IMG/VR virus record: IMGVR_UViG_3300027971_002843
Coordinates: 1-27,902 of that record
Length of the DNA stretch: 27,902 bases
Reading direction: 5' to 3' (one strand)
DNA from: a virus
Position numbers and translations under genes: made by a program. A model generated the notes under the pieces. It did no database searches and had not been told where the DNA came from. It worked only from the letters and a program-made list of their open reading frames with translations. The stretch's first letter is position 1. The number at the start of each line of letters is the position of its first letter. Positions 13,265 to 25,448 of the stretch are shown here, piece by piece.

Positions 13265-14203
13265 ATGAAAAAATTGTTGTCTATTATATTATTGTTGTGC
13301 AGTTTTGGTCTGTCGGCTCAATCATTTCCTGCAAAACCTGTAAAAATTATTGTTGGTCTTCCAGTAGGATCTGGTCCTGACGTTATCATTAGAAAAGTTG
13401 CAGATCAACTGTCGACAAAATGGTCTGTTCCGGTTATCATTGAAAACCGACCAGGCGGCGGCGGTGCTGTATCACTAAACGCATTTAATTCGGAACCGGC
13501 AGATGGCTATACCCTGTTCTTTGGCGACGTTGGCACAGTTGCTGGATATCCAATCTTATATAACGACGCCAAGATCATTGAAAACTTAGAACCAGTTCGT
13601 CCAGTAATTTATTCTGAGATGATGTTATTTGCTGGCAGTAAAATTCAAAATGCCAATGATTTAAAAACAGCGTTAAAAGCAAATCCAACACTTGGTAGCT
13701 GGGGTATAGGTAGTCCAGCGCATATCAATGATTTAGTTGTGGCTGACACCTTTGGTATTAACGCGATTCACGTGCCTTATAAAGATTATGGACAATGGTT
13801 TATTGACACATCAAATCAACAAGTAACCGCAGGATTTGCGACTATGGCTTCGGCTGGTAAAATGGAAAAGTCTGGTAAAATTCGATATCTTGCTGTCACT
13901 GGAGACCGCAGAGACTTTGCCTATCCGGATGTTCCTACTGTAAAAGAATTAACTGGTAAGAATATTAAAACTCTTGCCAGCTACGTGGCTGTCTATACCA
14001 ATAAAAAAGTAGATCCAGCGATACGAAAAAAACTGATCAAGGACTTTGATGAAGTTGTTAACAGCAATAATATAAAGTTTGCCTTGTTGGCAGTTGACTA
14101 TCGTCCAATGCCTATCAGTGTTGATGAATTCAAAACCTATGCTAATGAGCAATATAATCTTTACAAAAAGTTAATCAAGCAGTATAATATTACTATTAAC
14201 TAA
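13265..14203 (+). CDS. tctC: TctC/Bug-type periplasmic solute-binding protein
   Basis: A 312-residue protein with a Sec signal peptide (MKKLLSIILLLCSFGLSA, cleavage likely before Gln19). The mature start FPAKPVKIIVGLPVGSGPD, then VPVIIENRPGGGGAVSLNA and ADGYTLFFGD, is the hallmark of the Bug family of receptors of tripartite tricarboxylate transporters, which bind carboxylates, nicotinate and similar compounds in the periplasm. The YPDVPTVKEL stretch near the C-terminus is also typical. Length (about 310-325 in the family) and motifs look intact. The family is hugely expanded in Burkholderiales and very unusual in a phage. No TctA/TctB membrane genes are nearby, so it would have to feed a host transporter or act alone. 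Confidence 0.9.
   Translation: MKKLLSIILLLCSFGLSAQSFPAKPVKIIVGLPVGSGPDVIIRKVADQLSTKWSVPVIIENRPGGGGAVSLNAFNSEPADGYTLFFGDVGTVAGYPILYNDAKIIENLEPVRPVIYSEMMLFAGSKIQNANDLKTALKANPTLGSWGIGSPAHINDLVVADTFGINAIHVPYKDYGQWFIDTSNQQVTAGFATMASAGKMEKSGKIRYLAVTGDRRDFAYPDVPTVKELTGKNIKTLASYVAVYTNKKVDPAIRKKLIKDFDEVVNSNNIKFALLAVDYRPMPISVDEFKTYANEQYNLYKKLIKQYNITIN
14160..14188 (+). promoter_or_regulatory. Promoter inside the 3' end of tctC
   Basis: TTTACA at 14160-14165 and TATAAT at 14183-14188, exactly 17 bases apart. The same boxes and spacing occur in the duplicated promoter at 24152 and 24949. It lies in the last codons of tctC and would drive the epimerase relic and the amidinotransferase gene. Confidence 0.5.
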
Positions 14204-16032: not shown

Positions 16033-16982
16033 CTAAAGTTGTAGTTACTGGTGCTGCAGGATTTATTGGTGGGGAAACACTATTAAAACTAGTGGATGCT
16101 GGCCACGATGTGCTGGCCATTGATCGAGTGATGCCGCCTGGACATTTGATTCCTGTGCCATGTCAGTGGCACACCGGAGACTTTTCTACTGAGTTAGGTT
16201 TAGACGCTATTAAAAGATTTTGCCCAGATGCCATTATCCACTGTGCTGGCACTAGTCTAGTCGGCCCTAGTGTAGCCAATCCAGAAGAGTACTATGACAA
16301 TAACTTCGTTAAAACCAAAATACTACTGGACTATCTGATTGAAAATCACTATAAACAAGTTAGATTTATTTTTAGTTCGAGTGCCGCAACATACGGCAAT
16401 CCCATTATGACTCCAGTACAAGAAGTTGATCCCACTGAGCCAATTAGTCCATACGGTCAAAGCAAGTTAATGATCGATTGGATGCTGAAGAGTTATCAAC
16501 AAGCCTATGGATTAGACTATGTAAGTTTTCGTTACTTTAACGCATGCGGGGCCGACAGTCAAGCTCGTCATGGCCAAGCACCGGGTGCCACTCATATTAT
16601 TGCCCGAGTGTTAGAAAGTGTCAAAGACAAACAAGATTTCACTTTATATGGTACCGATTATTCTACCGACGATGGTACATGTGTTCGAGACTATATCCAC
16701 GTAGAAGATTTAGCACTAGCTCATATATTGGCCATTGGTCCGTCTATACCCGGGGACATTTATAATCTTGGTACCAATGTTGGCAATAGTAATCTTGCTG
16801 TGGTACAGCTGGCTGCACAAATAACCACAGCCGATATTGCCATGTTACATGGTCCTAAGCGTGAAGGTGACCCAGCTATTCTTACTGCCGATTCCGGTAA
16901 GTTTATAAAGGCCAGTGGGTGGCAACCAAAGTTTAATTTAGAAGACATGATCACTCACGCCTGGGCTTGGTATAATCGATGA
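16029..16982 (+). CDS. galE: NAD-dependent UDP-glucose 4-epimerase (GalE-like)
   Basis: A 317-residue extended short-chain dehydrogenase. TGAAGFIGGE holds the GxxGxxG NAD motif (Gly8, 11, 14), Asp32 after strand 2 fits NAD preference, HCAGTSLVGPS is the central strand, SSSAATYG carries the catalytic Ser, and SPYGQSK has Tyr142-X3-Lys146. The DDGTCVRDYIHVEDLA segment is the characteristic GalE motif that binds the nucleotide sugar. It converts UDP-glucose to UDP-galactose or acts on the N-acetyl forms. It is slightly shorter than cellular GalE (about 335). Overlaps at both ends (ATGA) couple it to the DegT-like gene downstream, a typical sugar-nucleotide pair. Confidence 0.88.
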   Translation: MTKVVVTGAAGFIGGETLLKLVDAGHDVLAIDRVMPPGHLIPVPCQWHTGDFSTELGLDAIKRFCPDAIIHCAGTSLVGPSVANPEEYYDNNFVKTKILLDYLIENHYKQVRFIFSSSAATYGNPIMTPVQEVDPTEPISPYGQSKLMIDWMLKSYQQAYGLDYVSFRYFNACGADSQARHGQAPGATHIIARVLESVKDKQDFTLYGTDYSTDDGTCVRDYIHVEDLALAHILAIGPSIPGDIYNLGTNVGNSNLAVVQLAAQITTADIAMLHGPKREGDPAILTADSGKFIKASGWQPKFNLEDMITHAWAWYNR

Positions 16983-17572
16983 GTTTCAATGCTTTATTTG
17001 ATTTTGAATCAGCCTTGGCCAAATACACAGGTGCACCATATGTGGTGTTAACTGATTGTTGCACTCACGCACTTGAACTTTGTTTTCGTCACGATGGTAT
17101 TAAGAAAACAGCGTTTACTCCATTTACCTATTTAAGTATTCCTATGCTGATGCAACACTTGGGTGTTGATTATCAATATCACAATCAAGATCACAGACAA
17201 TATACTTGGACCGGCGAATACCATTTTGAAGGCACTAGAATTTGGGATAGTGCCCGCAGACTAGAACCGGGCATGTATAAAAAAGGATTCATGCAATGTT
17301 TAAGTTTTGGTTGGACCAAACCATTACAACTAGGTAAGGTTGGTGCTATATTGTTAGACGACTATGAAGCATACAAAAAGTTTAGTCGTCAACGGTCGGA
17401 TGGTAGAGACCTAAATATACCATGGGAAAAAGAAACTGATTTAATTTTAGGATATCATTACTGTCCTACATTAGAATTGTGTGTAAAAGGATTGGAATTA
17501 TTGTCTACTGTAGAACCAAAATCACAACCTGGCATTTATCCTGATTGCAGAAATATTCCATTTAAGTGTTGA
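16979..17572 (+). CDS. Short DegT/DnrJ/EryC1-like aminotransferase domain protein
   Basis: A 197-residue protein covering only the large PLP-binding domain of DegT-family sugar aminotransferases, which are normally about 370-400 residues. VLTDCCTHALEL matches the 'SG..AL.+AL' cofactor loop, FTPFTYLSIPMLMQHLG the following 'P..++.++.+.+...G' helix, IWDSARRL the 'EDAA...G' Asp (Asp90), and CLSFGWTKPLQLGKVGAI the 'SF...K.+..G.GG' segment with the likely Schiff-base Lys114. The C-terminal domain and most of the dimer contacts are absent, without a visible frameshift. It could be a minimal enzyme, a partner subunit or a non-catalytic sugar binder. Coupled to galE. Confidence 0.6.
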   Translation: MSFNALFDFESALAKYTGAPYVVLTDCCTHALELCFRHDGIKKTAFTPFTYLSIPMLMQHLGVDYQYHNQDHRQYTWTGEYHFEGTRIWDSARRLEPGMYKKGFMQCLSFGWTKPLQLGKVGAILLDDYEAYKKFSRQRSDGRDLNIPWEKETDLILGYHYCPTLELCVKGLELLSTVEPKSQPGIYPDCRNIPFKC

Positions 17573-17641: not shown

Positions 17642-18451
17642 TTGACAGATAAAAATACAAGCCAAGATACATTCGATAGATTGAAAGCAGATCAATTGGT
17701 CGTAGAAGCACCATTCCATCCTGGCTATGAAGATGCTGTAATCGGCGATAACGGCTATGAAGAAGCCAACCTAGCAGATGCTATCCGCTTTAAGATGAAG
17801 CGTGACAAGAAACGTTTTTGGGCTGGCGACAACATTAGCGACTACTTGCACGAAGGTGACAAGGAAATCCTAATCGATGAAGCTACTGCGGCATTTGAAA
17901 AGGTACTAGATACCTTATTAATTGATCGTGAAAACGATCCTAACTCACGAGGCACGGCACGTCGTCTTGCCAAAATGTATTTTAACGAAATTATGGGAGG
18001 TCGATATGATCCAGCACCAGATGCAACAGCTTTTCCAAATGATTCGTCGGATAGATATGACGGTATGCTTGTTGTTCGTAGCGAACTGCGTTCTATGTGC
18101 AGTCATCATCATCAGCCTGTGTCTGGTGTTGCTTACATCGGAATCATCGCCGCAAATAAACTTATTGGCCTGTCTAAATATACTAGGATCGCTCAGTGGT
18201 GTGCTCGTCGTGGCACACTTCAAGAAGAACTATGTAACGACATCGCAAGAGAAATAATGCGGGCCACCGACAGTGAAAATGTCGGCGTGTATATTCAAGC
18301 CACGCACGGATGTTGTGAGAATCGTGGCATCATGGCACACAGTAGTCTAACGCAGACCACAGTATTACGTGGTAGCTTTCAAGCAGACCCAGGAACAAAG
18401 AAAGAGTTCATGGACAATATCAAACTACAACAAGACTTTGCACCAAGATGA
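17642..18451 (+). CDS. folE: GTP cyclohydrolase I (FolE)
   Basis: A 269-residue enzyme that turns GTP into dihydroneopterin triphosphate, the first step of both folate and 7-deazaguanine (preQ0) synthesis. Zinc ligands are Cys143 and His146 in SMCSHHHQPVSG and Cys214 in THGCCENRG; LIGLSKYTRIAQWCARR and the LQEEL segment are the usual family core. The family's CEHH is CSHH here. About 60 extra N-terminal residues precede the core. The start is a TTG at 17642, supported by GGAG seven bases upstream and no other in-frame start before residue 52. In phages with dpdA, folE normally belongs to the DNA-modification pathway, which I infer here. Overlaps the next gene (ATGA). Confidence 0.95.
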   Translation: MTDKNTSQDTFDRLKADQLVVEAPFHPGYEDAVIGDNGYEEANLADAIRFKMKRDKKRFWAGDNISDYLHEGDKEILIDEATAAFEKVLDTLLIDRENDPNSRGTARRLAKMYFNEIMGGRYDPAPDATAFPNDSSDRYDGMLVVRSELRSMCSHHHQPVSGVAYIGIIAANKLIGLSKYTRIAQWCARRGTLQEELCNDIAREIMRATDSENVGVYIQATHGCCENRGIMAHSSLTQTTVLRGSFQADPGTKKEFMDNIKLQQDFAPR

Positions 18452-18704: not shown

Positions 18705-18744
18705 TTGACTCAAAAAGGGTGATACGCTATAATAGTAGCATATC
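18705..18744 (+). promoter_or_regulatory. Strong sigma-70 promoter with flanking inverted repeat, for the lipoprotein gene
   Basis: TTGACT at 18705-18710, 17-base spacer, TATAAT at 18728-18733. The inverted repeat GATACGC (18721-18727) / GCATATC (18738-18744), six of seven bases matched, brackets the -10 box, a typical position for a repressor operator. TGGAG precedes the ATG at 18764. Confidence 0.65.
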
Positions 18745-18763
18745 GTAAATTTTTGGAGCCAAC

Positions 18764-21211
18764 ATGCGTAAGGTACAGGTATTTAATAGGACTGCTATAG
18801 CCGTTGCGGCCGCAACTGTATTGCTACAAGCCTGCGGTGGTGGTGGTGGCGGTGGTGGCGGTGGTGGCGGAAGCCCATACTCGCCCGGTAATCCGTATCT
18901 CAGAACCGAAGTTCCTTATTCCACACCTGTTAGGGTAGGCACAGTTGATCCTCTGGTCAATAACAAATACACTGCCTTTGTTGGTGATACCTATGTGGCC
19001 AATATTTCAGGCACAGGTGAAGATGTAATTGTTGCCGGCGCATCTACAGCACAATCCTCTGCCACGGATTGGGCCAGCACCAGAATCAGCATGTTCAGTT
19101 GGTCCAACGGCACCATGGTAGACAAAACCGCTCAATGGTTTACCGGTAGCAACAATATTATTTTAGGTACCAACGCTGTAAAATTTGCAGACTTCTTTAA
19201 ATCTGGTCGCACTGACATGTTTACTGCGCCCTACTCAGACTGGAGCCTTACCGACAACGGGCCAGCTTATGTGTGGACCAACAATGGCACCAGTTTTACT
19301 AGACAGGCCATTGCGGCCAATGTCAGTGCTCATGATTCGGCCATAGCCGACATAAATGGTGATGGCTACAAAGATATTGTGATACTGGATGCCAATGCCC
19401 AAAACAGCACACTGGCCATCAATGATCGAGTCAGCAGTTTCCGAACATATACTGCTACGTCAGGAACACAACTTGGCGGTAGCAGTATTGCAGTGGCAGA
19501 CTTTTTGAACAGCGGCTCCAGTACTTTTATCACCACTGACAACTGGTCAGCCGGTGGTAACGTACAAAAATTGTGGAGTTGGAGTATTGATGGCAGTAAC
19601 AACCTTAGTTTCAATGAGCTTGCGGTGTTGCCCACATCCAGATTTAATCTAGCAAAATGGCAGGCCATAGGCGTACTGGACAGTCATAATGTCAGAGTAG
19701 CCGCACATGATTTTAATAGTGATTCGGTCATGGATGCTATTGTGTTTAGCCAGCCTGGGCGAGTATCACCTGGTACCAGCACTAACTACAGTGAAATACA
19801 ATTCCTAAAAAACAACGGCTCTGGATCATTTACCGACGTAACCGATTCGACCTTGGTTGGATACAACACCAACACTCGTACTACCTATCAGCCCAAGTTC
19901 CTGGACCTTAACGGTGACGGCCTAACTGATATCTTGGTATCAGGTGGCGATACCTCGGGCACCAGCAGTCAGTTTTTGTTGAAAAGTGCAGATGGCAAAT
20001 ATGTGGCCACTTATGCAAAGGTATTGAGTGATTATCTGGCACAGGTCAAGACCATGGCCGGAGGCGATGCAAACGATCACACTGTGAATGTGGTCAAGGG
20101 CCCAGACGGCAAGATGTACTTGGTTAGTGCCGTGAGTTATATGAATGGGTCGGATCGACAGTTGGCTGTGTATATCAGTGCCCTGGGTAGTCAAAGCGTA
20201 ACCACAGCACAAACAGCAGTGAATTTAATGTTGCAAAAATGGCCCTACATGACTGCGGCCGCAGCCAACGATGCACTAGCCCGTACTGTGGCTTCATACA
20301 TGAACGGTGTAGGTATCATTGACGAAGACGCGGTACTTAAACCTCTCGGTGATTTGAGTTTGTCCACCGCGGGTGGGTACAAGGCCATAAATGGATTCAT
20401 AGCCGGTGTCAATCTTGGTGACGGATCAGTAGTGGCCATGGACATGGCAGGCCGTAGTTACAACCTAAACTTGACTCCAATGGCCATAAACAGAATCAAT
20501 GCGTTTGGCTACAACACCGAACACAACGATCAATACGAGTTGACCAGTCATGCAGAGTATCTGGTCAATGGTGGACTTGCCACAGTAAATGGTATGCGTG
20601 TTGGTAGTGATTATGTTGCACAAGATAGTAGTCGATCGAACATGTTGAACAAACCTACTCAATATACCATTGGCGTACCTAAGATTTATAGTTATGGTAA
20701 ATGGAGTATGGGTACGCAATACACCTATTTGAATACCAATCCGTGGATTGCGTTTGGTGGTGCTTGGGGTTCAGTAACTGGCTCAGGAATCATGGACAAT
20801 GTGGTCACTTATCGTAATAGCGGATTCAGCGCACAGGCCAGTTTGATGAATGTGACTACAAACATTACCCCAGGTTTGATTACCAAGGTCAATAACATGT
20901 GGGGTGCTTGGGCAGAAACTGGCTACAGATTCGGTGATGCACGTCGTGAAGGCGATTTGGGATTATATGCCGGTATCAAACCTGTAGTACTATCAGGATC
21001 AGTAGAAGCCAAATTGCCCACAGGTGTTGACAACTCAGGTAATATCATGTACACTAACAAGACACTGGCAGTACAGAATCAAACTACCGGTTATGTGCGG
21101 GCACTTTATACCAATCAGTTGACCAAACAGACACAGTTAAGATTAAGTGCCATGAGCACAACGGATGGTCAGTATAGAGCAATGACAGAATTAAGATTTT
21201 GGATAGACTAA
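18764..21211 (+). CDS. Large surface lipoprotein with FG-GAP/VCBS repeats and barrel-like C-terminus
   Basis: An 815-residue predicted outer-membrane lipoprotein. A signal peptide ends in the lipobox LLQAC, with Cys24 the lipidation site, followed by twelve glycines. Calcium-loop repeats typical of FG-GAP/VCBS beta-propellers are at D196 (ADINGDGYKD), D316 (HDFNSDSVMD) and D381 (LDLNGDGLTD). Residues from about 540 onward alternate short beta strands (for example VVAMDMAGRSYNLNL, KWSMGTQYTYL) and end in ELRFWID, similar to autotransporter-like or porin-like barrels. Such Cys-Gly lipoproteins are typical of Betaproteobacteria, not of phages, so host origin is likely. Possible jobs are altering the infected cell's surface, superinfection exclusion or adhesion. 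It is more GC-rich than the genes around it. Confidence 0.75.
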   Translation: MRKVQVFNRTAIAVAAATVLLQACGGGGGGGGGGGGSPYSPGNPYLRTEVPYSTPVRVGTVDPLVNNKYTAFVGDTYVANISGTGEDVIVAGASTAQSSATDWASTRISMFSWSNGTMVDKTAQWFTGSNNIILGTNAVKFADFFKSGRTDMFTAPYSDWSLTDNGPAYVWTNNGTSFTRQAIAANVSAHDSAIADINGDGYKDIVILDANAQNSTLAINDRVSSFRTYTATSGTQLGGSSIAVADFLNSGSSTFITTDNWSAGGNVQKLWSWSIDGSNNLSFNELAVLPTSRFNLAKWQAIGVLDSHNVRVAAHDFNSDSVMDAIVFSQPGRVSPGTSTNYSEIQFLKNNGSGSFTDVTDSTLVGYNTNTRTTYQPKFLDLNGDGLTDILVSGGDTSGTSSQFLLKSADGKYVATYAKVLSDYLAQVKTMAGGDANDHTVNVVKGPDGKMYLVSAVSYMNGSDRQLAVYISALGSQSVTTAQTAVNLMLQKWPYMTAAAANDALARTVASYMNGVGIIDEDAVLKPLGDLSLSTAGGYKAINGFIAGVNLGDGSVVAMDMAGRSYNLNLTPMAINRINAFGYNTEHNDQYELTSHAEYLVNGGLATVNGMRVGSDYVAQDSSRSNMLNKPTQYTIGVPKIYSYGKWSMGTQYTYLNTNPWIAFGGAWGSVTGSGIMDNVVTYRNSGFSAQASLMNVTTNITPGLITKVNNMWGAWAETGYRFGDARREGDLGLYAGIKPVVLSGSVEAKLPTGVDNSGNIMYTNKTLAVQNQTTGYVRALYTNQLTKQTQLRLSAMSTTDGQYRAMTELRFWID
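18836..18871 (+). repeat. (GGN)12 codon tract encoding twelve glycines
   Basis: Twelve consecutive GGT/GGC/GGA codons directly after the lipidated Cys. Changes in codon number would alter the length of the flexible tether without shifting the frame. Confidence 0.9.
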
Positions 21212-21212
21212 T

Positions 21213-21581
21213 ATGACAACATTACTAGAAGCACAACAGGCAGGCGTAGCACCATGGGATAATCTTGTAGAAAATCGTTCATTGGTTGCTGTATATTTAG
21301 ACCGGTATCCATGCACTCCAGGGCATAGGTTGTATGTGCCCAAAGATAACAATCCTAATTGGATTGTACAGGCCATGGAACACGCCCTAGCCGATGGTAA
21401 TCACATGGTTGCTCAAGGTGAGTGTGATGGATTTAACATTGGATTTAATTCAGGTGTGGCCGCGGGTCAAACTGTGATGTATCCGCATGTGCATCTTATT
21501 CCACGCCGTAACGGCGATGTTGAGGACCCTGTGGGCGGTGTGCGAAATACTATACCGGGAAAAGGAAACTATAAAAAATGA
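21213..21581 (+). CDS. HIT-family nucleotide hydrolase
   Basis: A 122-residue histidine-triad protein. The family signature HxHxHxx appears as MYPHVHLIPRR, so His92 and His94 (nucleophile) are present but the first His is Tyr90. GDVEDPVGGVRNTIPGKGNY is the usual C-terminal segment of bacterial HIT proteins. These enzymes split nucleotide phosphoramidates and dinucleoside polyphosphates. It starts one base after the lipoprotein stop and overlaps the next gene (ATGA), so the three appear to form one operon. The Tyr substitution is shared, to my knowledge, with other phage and cyanobacterial HIT proteins. Confidence 0.82.
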   Translation: MTTLLEAQQAGVAPWDNLVENRSLVAVYLDRYPCTPGHRLYVPKDNNPNWIVQAMEHALADGNHMVAQGECDGFNIGFNSGVAAGQTVMYPHVHLIPRRNGDVEDPVGGVRNTIPGKGNYKK

Positions 21582-24995: not shown

Positions 24996-25448
24996 ATGGC
25001 AAAGTATTATTCAACAAAACACTACGGTCACAACATTGGACTCAGTGCTGTGTTTCGTCAACCCAATGCAGATCATTCACATTGTCATTTGCTACACGGT
25101 TACAGTCTGGCATTTACATTTACATTTGGATGTGACTCATTAGACAACAAAAACTGGGCAGTGGACTTTGGTGGACTCAAACCGCTCAAAGCATGGCTGG
25201 AAGATCATTTTGATCACAAGTTGGCTTTGGATCAACAAGATCCACACTTAGCTAAATTTCAAGAACTAGAAGCGTTGGATCTTGCAGAGATTAGAATCTT
25301 TGACGGTGTGGGTGCAGAGAAGTTTGCCGAACATGCTTTCAATTTTGCTGACCAATTGATCAGAGAAAACACCAACAATCGTTGCTATTGCGTCAGGGTA
25401 GAATGTGCTGAACACGGTGCCAACAGTGCTATCTACGAAGGCCAATAA
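24996..25448 (+). CDS. queD: 6-carboxytetrahydropterin synthase-like protein (QueD family, variant zinc site)
   Basis: A 150-residue T-fold protein. QueD turns dihydroneopterin triphosphate into 6-carboxytetrahydropterin, step two to preQ0. DFGGLKPLKAWLEDHFDH (57-74) and VRVECAEHGANSAIY are the family's core strands. Cys30, four residues before HG, fits the catalytic Cys and His74 the catalytic His. Of the three zinc histidines only His34 is in place: the first aligns with Phe20 and the third with Tyr36 (HGY instead of HGH). Extra histidines (27, 29, 31) could compensate. A similar 'FRQ...HC..LHGY' subfamily is, from memory, annotated in bacteria and cyanophages. Has its own repeated promoter. 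Confidence 0.72.
   Translation: MAKYYSTKHYGHNIGLSAVFRQPNADHSHCHLLHGYSLAFTFTFGCDSLDNKNWAVDFGGLKPLKAWLEDHFDHKLALDQQDPHLAKFQELEALDLAEIRIFDGVGAEKFAEHAFNFADQLIRENTNNRCYCVRVECAEHGANSAIYEGQ

Follow-up and report, generated by a model that had tools for sequence, protein, structure and literature searches.

The phage genes known to alter the surface of the host are mostly those for small lipoproteins, for proteins of the inner membrane or for enzymes that modify sugars. Cor and T5 Llp are small proteins, and T5 Llp acts early in infection. Both are phage lipoproteins that act on FhuA, which Cor blocks (PMC9311878). Among bacterial proteins, NalP and SphB1 are lipidated S8 autotransporters whose lipid keeps them on the cell surface (PMC9289746, PMC9977779). 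FG-GAP repeats are also found in a virus genome, that of prasinovirus MntV1, where binding of a surface ligand was proposed; this is a eukaryotic giant virus, and the available part of its description mentions neither a lipobox nor a barrel (PMC11467894). Here an 815-amino-acid lipoprotein gene was analysed in the virus record IMGVR_UViG_3300027971_002843, of which the whole stretch of 27,902 nucleotides is referred to as the window. The lipoprotein is likely to be surface-displayed and autotransporter-like, and on balance we favour the explanation that it is a phage-encoded, early-transcribed outer-membrane lipoprotein which displays a beta-propeller on the infected cell.

With Cor and T5 Llp, to which it was likened by description, it would share being a phage-encoded outer-membrane lipoprotein, but these have neither propeller nor barrel. 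Its N-terminal passenger and C-terminal outer-membrane barrel, as predicted, are arranged as in SphB1 and NalP, and it resembles S8 autotransporters in the junction of two helices and a strand linker and, for some Burkholderiales comparators, in the lipobox and glycine-rich tether. The passenger of those proteins is a protease, whereas the phage-encoded lipoprotein has an FG-GAP propeller in that place and a barrel of weak sequence similarity to theirs. A bacterial chromosomal AT-1 autotransporter with a propeller-type passenger, compared by description, has LGxL and not FG-GAP repeats. A literature search in a limited library found no paper on FG-GAP in jumbo phages or on phage-encoded autotransporters. 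The gene is not an isolated oddity, as it is shared by dozens of jumbo-phage relatives of this large uncultured phage.

Architecture and predicted fold of the lipoprotein

The open reading frame (ORF) begins with ATG, and the N-terminus passes from a charged n-region through a hydrophobic stretch to the lipobox LLQAC (Cys24) (Table 1). A glycine rather than an aspartate after the lipobox cysteine fits sorting to the outer membrane. Pfam FG-GAP_3 (PF13517) matches the protein in three stretches (E 1.8e-14), and three calcium-binding loops were observed against 0.03 expected from the shuffled protein. Apart from FG-GAP, no function was returned by PHROGs, PADLOC or Pfam, and there was no PHROG match at all; the sole NCBIfam match, XAC2610, was sub-threshold and lay over a calcium loop, and sequence searches of the PDB with the whole protein and with a C-terminal profile returned nothing relevant. 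Compared with its nearest relative, the gene has a nonsynonymous rate (dN) of 0.051 and a synonymous rate (dS) of 0.507, and the dN/dS of about 0.1 indicates a real gene under purifying selection.

These features are kept across the family, for which statistics were drawn from at least 62 distinct full-length viral homologs. An automatic scan found the lipobox in 60 of 62, the other two (TTAC and LGGC) being recognised by eye, and the motifs are canonical in nearly all (LSAC, ITGC, LTGC and similar). At least four consecutive glycines follow the lipobox cysteine in 54/60, and an aromatic residue lies within the last three positions in 60/62. After the lipobox, cysteine makes up 0.096% of residues in the homologs, compared with 1.5% in other ORFs.

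AlphaFold2 (AF2), run on the whole protein with 27 homologs as input, predicted a propeller followed by a strand-rich C-terminus at a mean predicted local distance difference test score (pLDDT) of 80.8. In VIA-align the propeller (residues 50-478) had a Z of 23.7 to the propellers of BBS7 and LGI1, and of ~21-22 to integrin alpha headpieces. It is followed in the model by helices at residues 482-492 and 498-508, a strand linker, and a run of ~12 strands from ~residue 603 to 812. Because a Foldseek search with the whole model mixes two domains and gives unreliable matches, the C-terminus was folded alone (pLDDT 82.5; predicted template modelling score, pTM, 0.72). Its best solved matches were all outer-membrane barrels, including KdgM and FapF, and the autotransporter translocators of AIDA-I, EstA and NalP aligned to it at Z 10.8, 10.8 and 10.7, respectively. 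The template modelling (TM) scores from Foldseek are modest and the strand count is therefore approximate. The lipobox, polyglycine tether, three calcium loops and strand-rich C-terminus listed in the initial annotation are thus all confirmed by sequence, Pfam or AF2, and the barrel-like character that it gave to the C-terminus is present in the predicted fold, with outer-membrane barrels as the best matches.

Relation to S8 autotransporters and exchange of passenger and barrel

The junction between propeller and barrel resembled the last two helices of the subtilisin domain and the lead-in to the autotransporter barrel, and a comparison with S8 autotransporters was therefore run. C-termini were taken from Burkholderiales genomes and compared with the propeller-lipoprotein family by hhalign; the S8 autotransporters with the homologous junction are L081, L085 and L102-L104. 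The whole C-terminus aligned at 96% (P 4.6e-9) and the junction alone at 97.4% (P 1.6e-11), while column-shuffled controls never fell below 0.018 in 60 and the reversed profile gave 0.59. Judged by these profiles, the junction is homologous to that of S8 autotransporters, where it is conserved, follows the catalytic Ser and leads into the barrel, and the barrel of the lipoprotein is probably homologous to theirs. Classical PF03797 autotransporters, considered as a source of the barrel, were rejected as they have no profile similarity to it (P 0.14).

The layout of type Va secretion (signal peptide, N-terminal passenger and C-terminal outer-membrane barrel of ~12 strands) is present in the lipoprotein by prediction. 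The subtilase domain PF00082 had no match in it by Pfam, and since the propeller stands in the place of the protease, the protein was not filed as an S8 protease. Two Burkholderiales S8 autotransporters (L078 and L079) also have a lipobox and polyglycine at the N-terminus. In another locus (L092) an S8 gene ends at the junction, and a small ORF of its own comes next.

Among phages, passenger and barrel have been recombined independently of each other. The window is 63-78% identical to L006 over the propeller and 53% over the barrel, and 31-48% and 77% identical, respectively, to L011. The propeller and barrel trees conflict, with approximately unbiased (AU) test P values of 5e-57 and 1.6e-4, which are optimistic as the tree groups were chosen after the identities had been seen. 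Fusions of the family's propeller to RTX repeats also occur (L043, L177). In L181 (5515-7290), which occupies the same folE/HIT slot in another phage, the propeller is joined to two stretches of DUF4214, with neither lipobox nor barrel. Together with the conflicting trees, these fusions indicate that the propeller is a passenger with exchangeable delivery parts. Family lipoproteins with only a propeller, or differently built, and without the barrel, occur on other viral contigs (L022/L182, L176 and L183).

Promoter class and proposed role in the infected cell

The gene is preceded by a near-consensus sigma70-type promoter (Table 1). A promoter scoring at least 10/12 lies within 110 bp upstream of 51/57 homologs, compared with 109/689 for the remaining genes of these loci. 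The pattern TTGAC-N17-19-TATAAT has 28-31 sites in every one of four large phage contigs, nearly all on one strand, and the reversed pattern, used as a control, occurs 0-1 times per strand. The copies in G006, G007, G008 and G009 (the contigs of L023, L016, L015 and L010), ~30 per genome, are often of the form TTGACCA(A/G)(A/T)AAT...GCTATAAT, with a conserved start of the spacer. The 337 kb contig, whose capsid gene is at 292 kb, has no site of this class across the 93 kb from 217 to 310 kb, and on the other two capsid-bearing contigs the class is likewise missing from the tens of kb that surround the gp23 capsid gene. This one-strand class looks like a host-type one and apparently provides the early promoters of these jumbo phages; as it is missing around the capsid gene, the lipoprotein gene looks early and not virion-structural. 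The strong promoter reported in the initial annotation is therefore real, but it is one of ~30 of its class per genome and no acquired switch belonging to this gene. The operator that had been read into it was rejected: the inverted repeat, which spans the -10 box, is not kept in the upstream sequences of relatives.

Early in infection, host Sec, signal peptidase II and Lol would lipidate and sort the lipoprotein, and its barrel would be folded into the outer membrane by BAM. The propeller, which is free of cysteine, would then cross to the outside, held by the lipid, the glycine tether and the barrel. There it may, with less certainty, bind a surface ligand such as a phage receptor, a glycan or a neighbouring outer-membrane protein, and binding could alter the surface of the infected cell early on, most likely by blocking superinfection or receptor binding. 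Early remodelling of the infected-cell surface appears reasonably probable. Superinfection exclusion specifically is put forward tentatively, by analogy with Cor and T5 Llp, as the most likely single use, with adhesion or glycan binding close behind.

Several points weigh against this explanation. The AF2 barrel is imperfect, at the pTM given above, and its Foldseek TM-score to FapF is 0.45 by target length. The barrel alone compares weakly with the S8 autotransporter barrel (P 0.021, the best of 60 shuffles reaching 0.064), and the Pfam autotransporter translocator PF03797 was unmatched in 24/24 members at E 10; we therefore describe the protein as working like a type Va autotransporter and do not claim formal membership. 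The S8 autotransporters in the junction profile had no lipobox in the scan, and those with lipobox and polyglycine have another type of barrel. Translocation of the propeller is inferred, as is early timing, the latter from the promoter class, and since the sequence points to no particular ligand, exclusion is an analogy.

The propeller could be surface-displayed and serve instead as an adhesin or as a binder of nutrients or glycans, which would aggregate infected cells, bind particles or polysaccharide, or block grazing, with no role in exclusion. This is possible, if somewhat unlikely. The structural matches include propellers of FG-GAP/integrin-like and lectin-like type, the fusions to RTX or DUF4214 resemble secreted adhesins, genes for sugars and nucleotide sugars abound in the locus, and some bacterial surface propeller proteins serve adhesion or biofilm formation (BapP, PMC12153261). 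A propeller match, however, tells nothing about the ligand, no carbohydrate-binding family was recognised, and what an infected cell, short-lived as it is, would gain is harder to see than with exclusion. It is improbable that, with the barrel in the outer membrane, the lipidated propeller remains periplasmic and, in the manner of T5 Llp, works from below on receptors or on enzymes of the envelope: the inner leaflet could hold a lipid at the N-terminus, but the junction is homologous to that of autotransporters with outside passengers, cysteine is depleted, and the same propeller is fused to RTX secretion repeats.

A virion-associated protein, for example a tail fibre or capsid decoration, is very improbable. 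Propellers and strand-rich domains do occur in receptor-binding devices of phages, and the whole chain has weak Foldseek matches to Phi11 and 80alpha, but an aromatic C-terminus and metabolic neighbours, with the missing PHROG match, argue against it. So do the lipobox, the barrel-type C-terminus and the missing promoter class around the capsid gene, which along with the propeller bear out the earlier view that this is no usual virion protein and belongs to the surface of the infected cell.

If surface display by an autotransporter-like lipoprotein is correct, a conserved early-type protein of many jumbo phages would represent a new form of phage control over what the host displays outwardly, and the chassis of a protease autotransporter would have been re-used to display a binding domain. 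It would also offer a way to test how the surface is controlled in phages with no cultured relative carrying the gene (0 matches in 50,697 phage records). At a little short of an even chance, this lineage of jumbo phages, uncultured and widespread, may encode a type-V-like display by lipid-anchored autotransporters in which an interchangeable propeller replaces the S8 protease and an early switch-on re-dresses the cell; taken jointly with this, and at the same strength, the shuffling of passenger and barrel between phages would be as expected in an arms race of surface recognition.

Distribution, origin and genomic neighbourhood

At least 115 viral-contig matches to the lipoprotein were found in IMG/VR, and several homologs lie on contigs of 225-344 kb. 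All three contigs tested of those above 300 kb (317, 320 and 337 kb) carry a T4-type capsid gene; that of the 337 kb contig shares 68-71% identity with capsid genes of cultured jumbo phages. No homolog was matched in plasmids or in the phage records noted above. Moraphages were considered as a possible described lineage and rejected, their report (PMC12619734) containing no FG-GAP, lipoprotein, integrin, propeller, autotransporter or GTP cyclohydrolase. Bacterial copies are rare, being found in 3/399 Burkholderiales genomes, the query genome included, and in a phylum sample only in the query genome; in the tree these few lie among viral lineages on long branches. The family is therefore mostly viral and very rare in bacteria. 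A search of betaproteobacteria and phages, as the initial annotation proposed, thus gave many relatives on viral contigs and hardly any elsewhere. On their chromosomal contigs the bacterial homologs L024, L025 and L042 adjoin ychF; the signal peptide of L024 and L025 lacks a lipobox, and L042 has a lipobox with polyglycine.

The higher GC content that had suggested acquisition is real in the gene (47% compared with 39% in the flanks) and modest family-wide, exceeding the flanks in 52/62 homologs by a mean of 2.5 points. That the gene was captured recently from a host, or is host DNA brought into the contig by misassembly, with no conserved role, is scarcely credible, and recent capture was rejected on synteny and the tree. 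The raised GC and the few chromosomal homologs beside ychF would suit this reading, but it is contradicted by the synteny of about 50 viral loci, the 62 distinct viral homologs with conserved locus and promoter, purifying selection, and the T4-type capsid genes on 317-337 kb contigs that carry the gene. With a family mostly viral, a conserved phage locus and rare bacterial copies among viral lineages, the description of the gene as host-like and acquired is unsupported; the conserved locus indicates an old phage gene, whatever the direction of the first transfer.

Table 1. Positions in the window of the lipoprotein gene, its parts and its neighbours
Feature	Position	Strand	Evidence
GTP cyclohydrolase I (folE), conserved upstream neighbour	17642..18451	+	Pfam E 4e-39, synteny
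Sigma70-type promoter TTGACT-17-TATAAT	18705..18733	+	near-consensus sequence
Ribosome binding site GGAG	18755..18758	+	sequence
815-aa lipoprotein, FG-GAP propeller and C-terminal barrel	18764..21211	+	ORF, Pfam, AF2, 62 viral homologs
Signal peptide and lipobox LLQAC, Cys24	18764..18835	+	sequence
12-glycine tether, directly after Cys24	18836..18871	+	sequence
FG-GAP beta-propeller, residues ~50-478, inferred passenger	18911..20197	+	Pfam, AF2, VIA-align
Ca-binding loop DINGDGYKD, residue 196	19349..19375	+	sequence motif
Ca-binding loop DFNSDSVMD, residue 316	19709..19735	+	sequence motif
Ca-binding loop DLNGDGLTD, residue 381	19904..19930	+	sequence motif
Junction: helix pair (482-508) and strand linker, homologous by profile to S8 autotransporter protease end	20198..20488	+	hhalign, AF2
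C-terminal transmembrane-type beta-barrel, about 12 strands (predicted)	20570..21199	+	AF2, structural matches
Last strand, aromatic C-terminal beta-signal-like motif YRAMTELRF	21173..21199	+	aromatic end common in homologs
HIT-domain protein, 1 bp after lipoprotein stop	21213..21581	+	Pfam, synteny
queD-like gene	24996-25448		

In about 50/79 loci folE lies close upstream of the lipoprotein gene, with HIT and queD usually downstream, and a marine-looking group of loci has other neighbours. The HIT gene is likely to be co-transcribed with the lipoprotein gene. The flanking folE and queD-like genes, found in most relatives, suggest deazaguanine or pterin chemistry. The queD neighbour has two forms, one of them about 40% and the other about 90% identical to that of the window, indicating that this slot has been exchanged too. 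A second bacterial-type envelope protein, a TctC/Bug-type periplasmic solute-binding receptor (Pfam E 5e-39), is encoded in the window at 13265-14203. At 16979-17572 the window encodes a 197-aa protein whose match to DegT/DnrJ aminotransferases is limited to a short part at their N-terminus; as its family is conserved across loci, it is likely to be a distinct small protein and not a broken enzyme.
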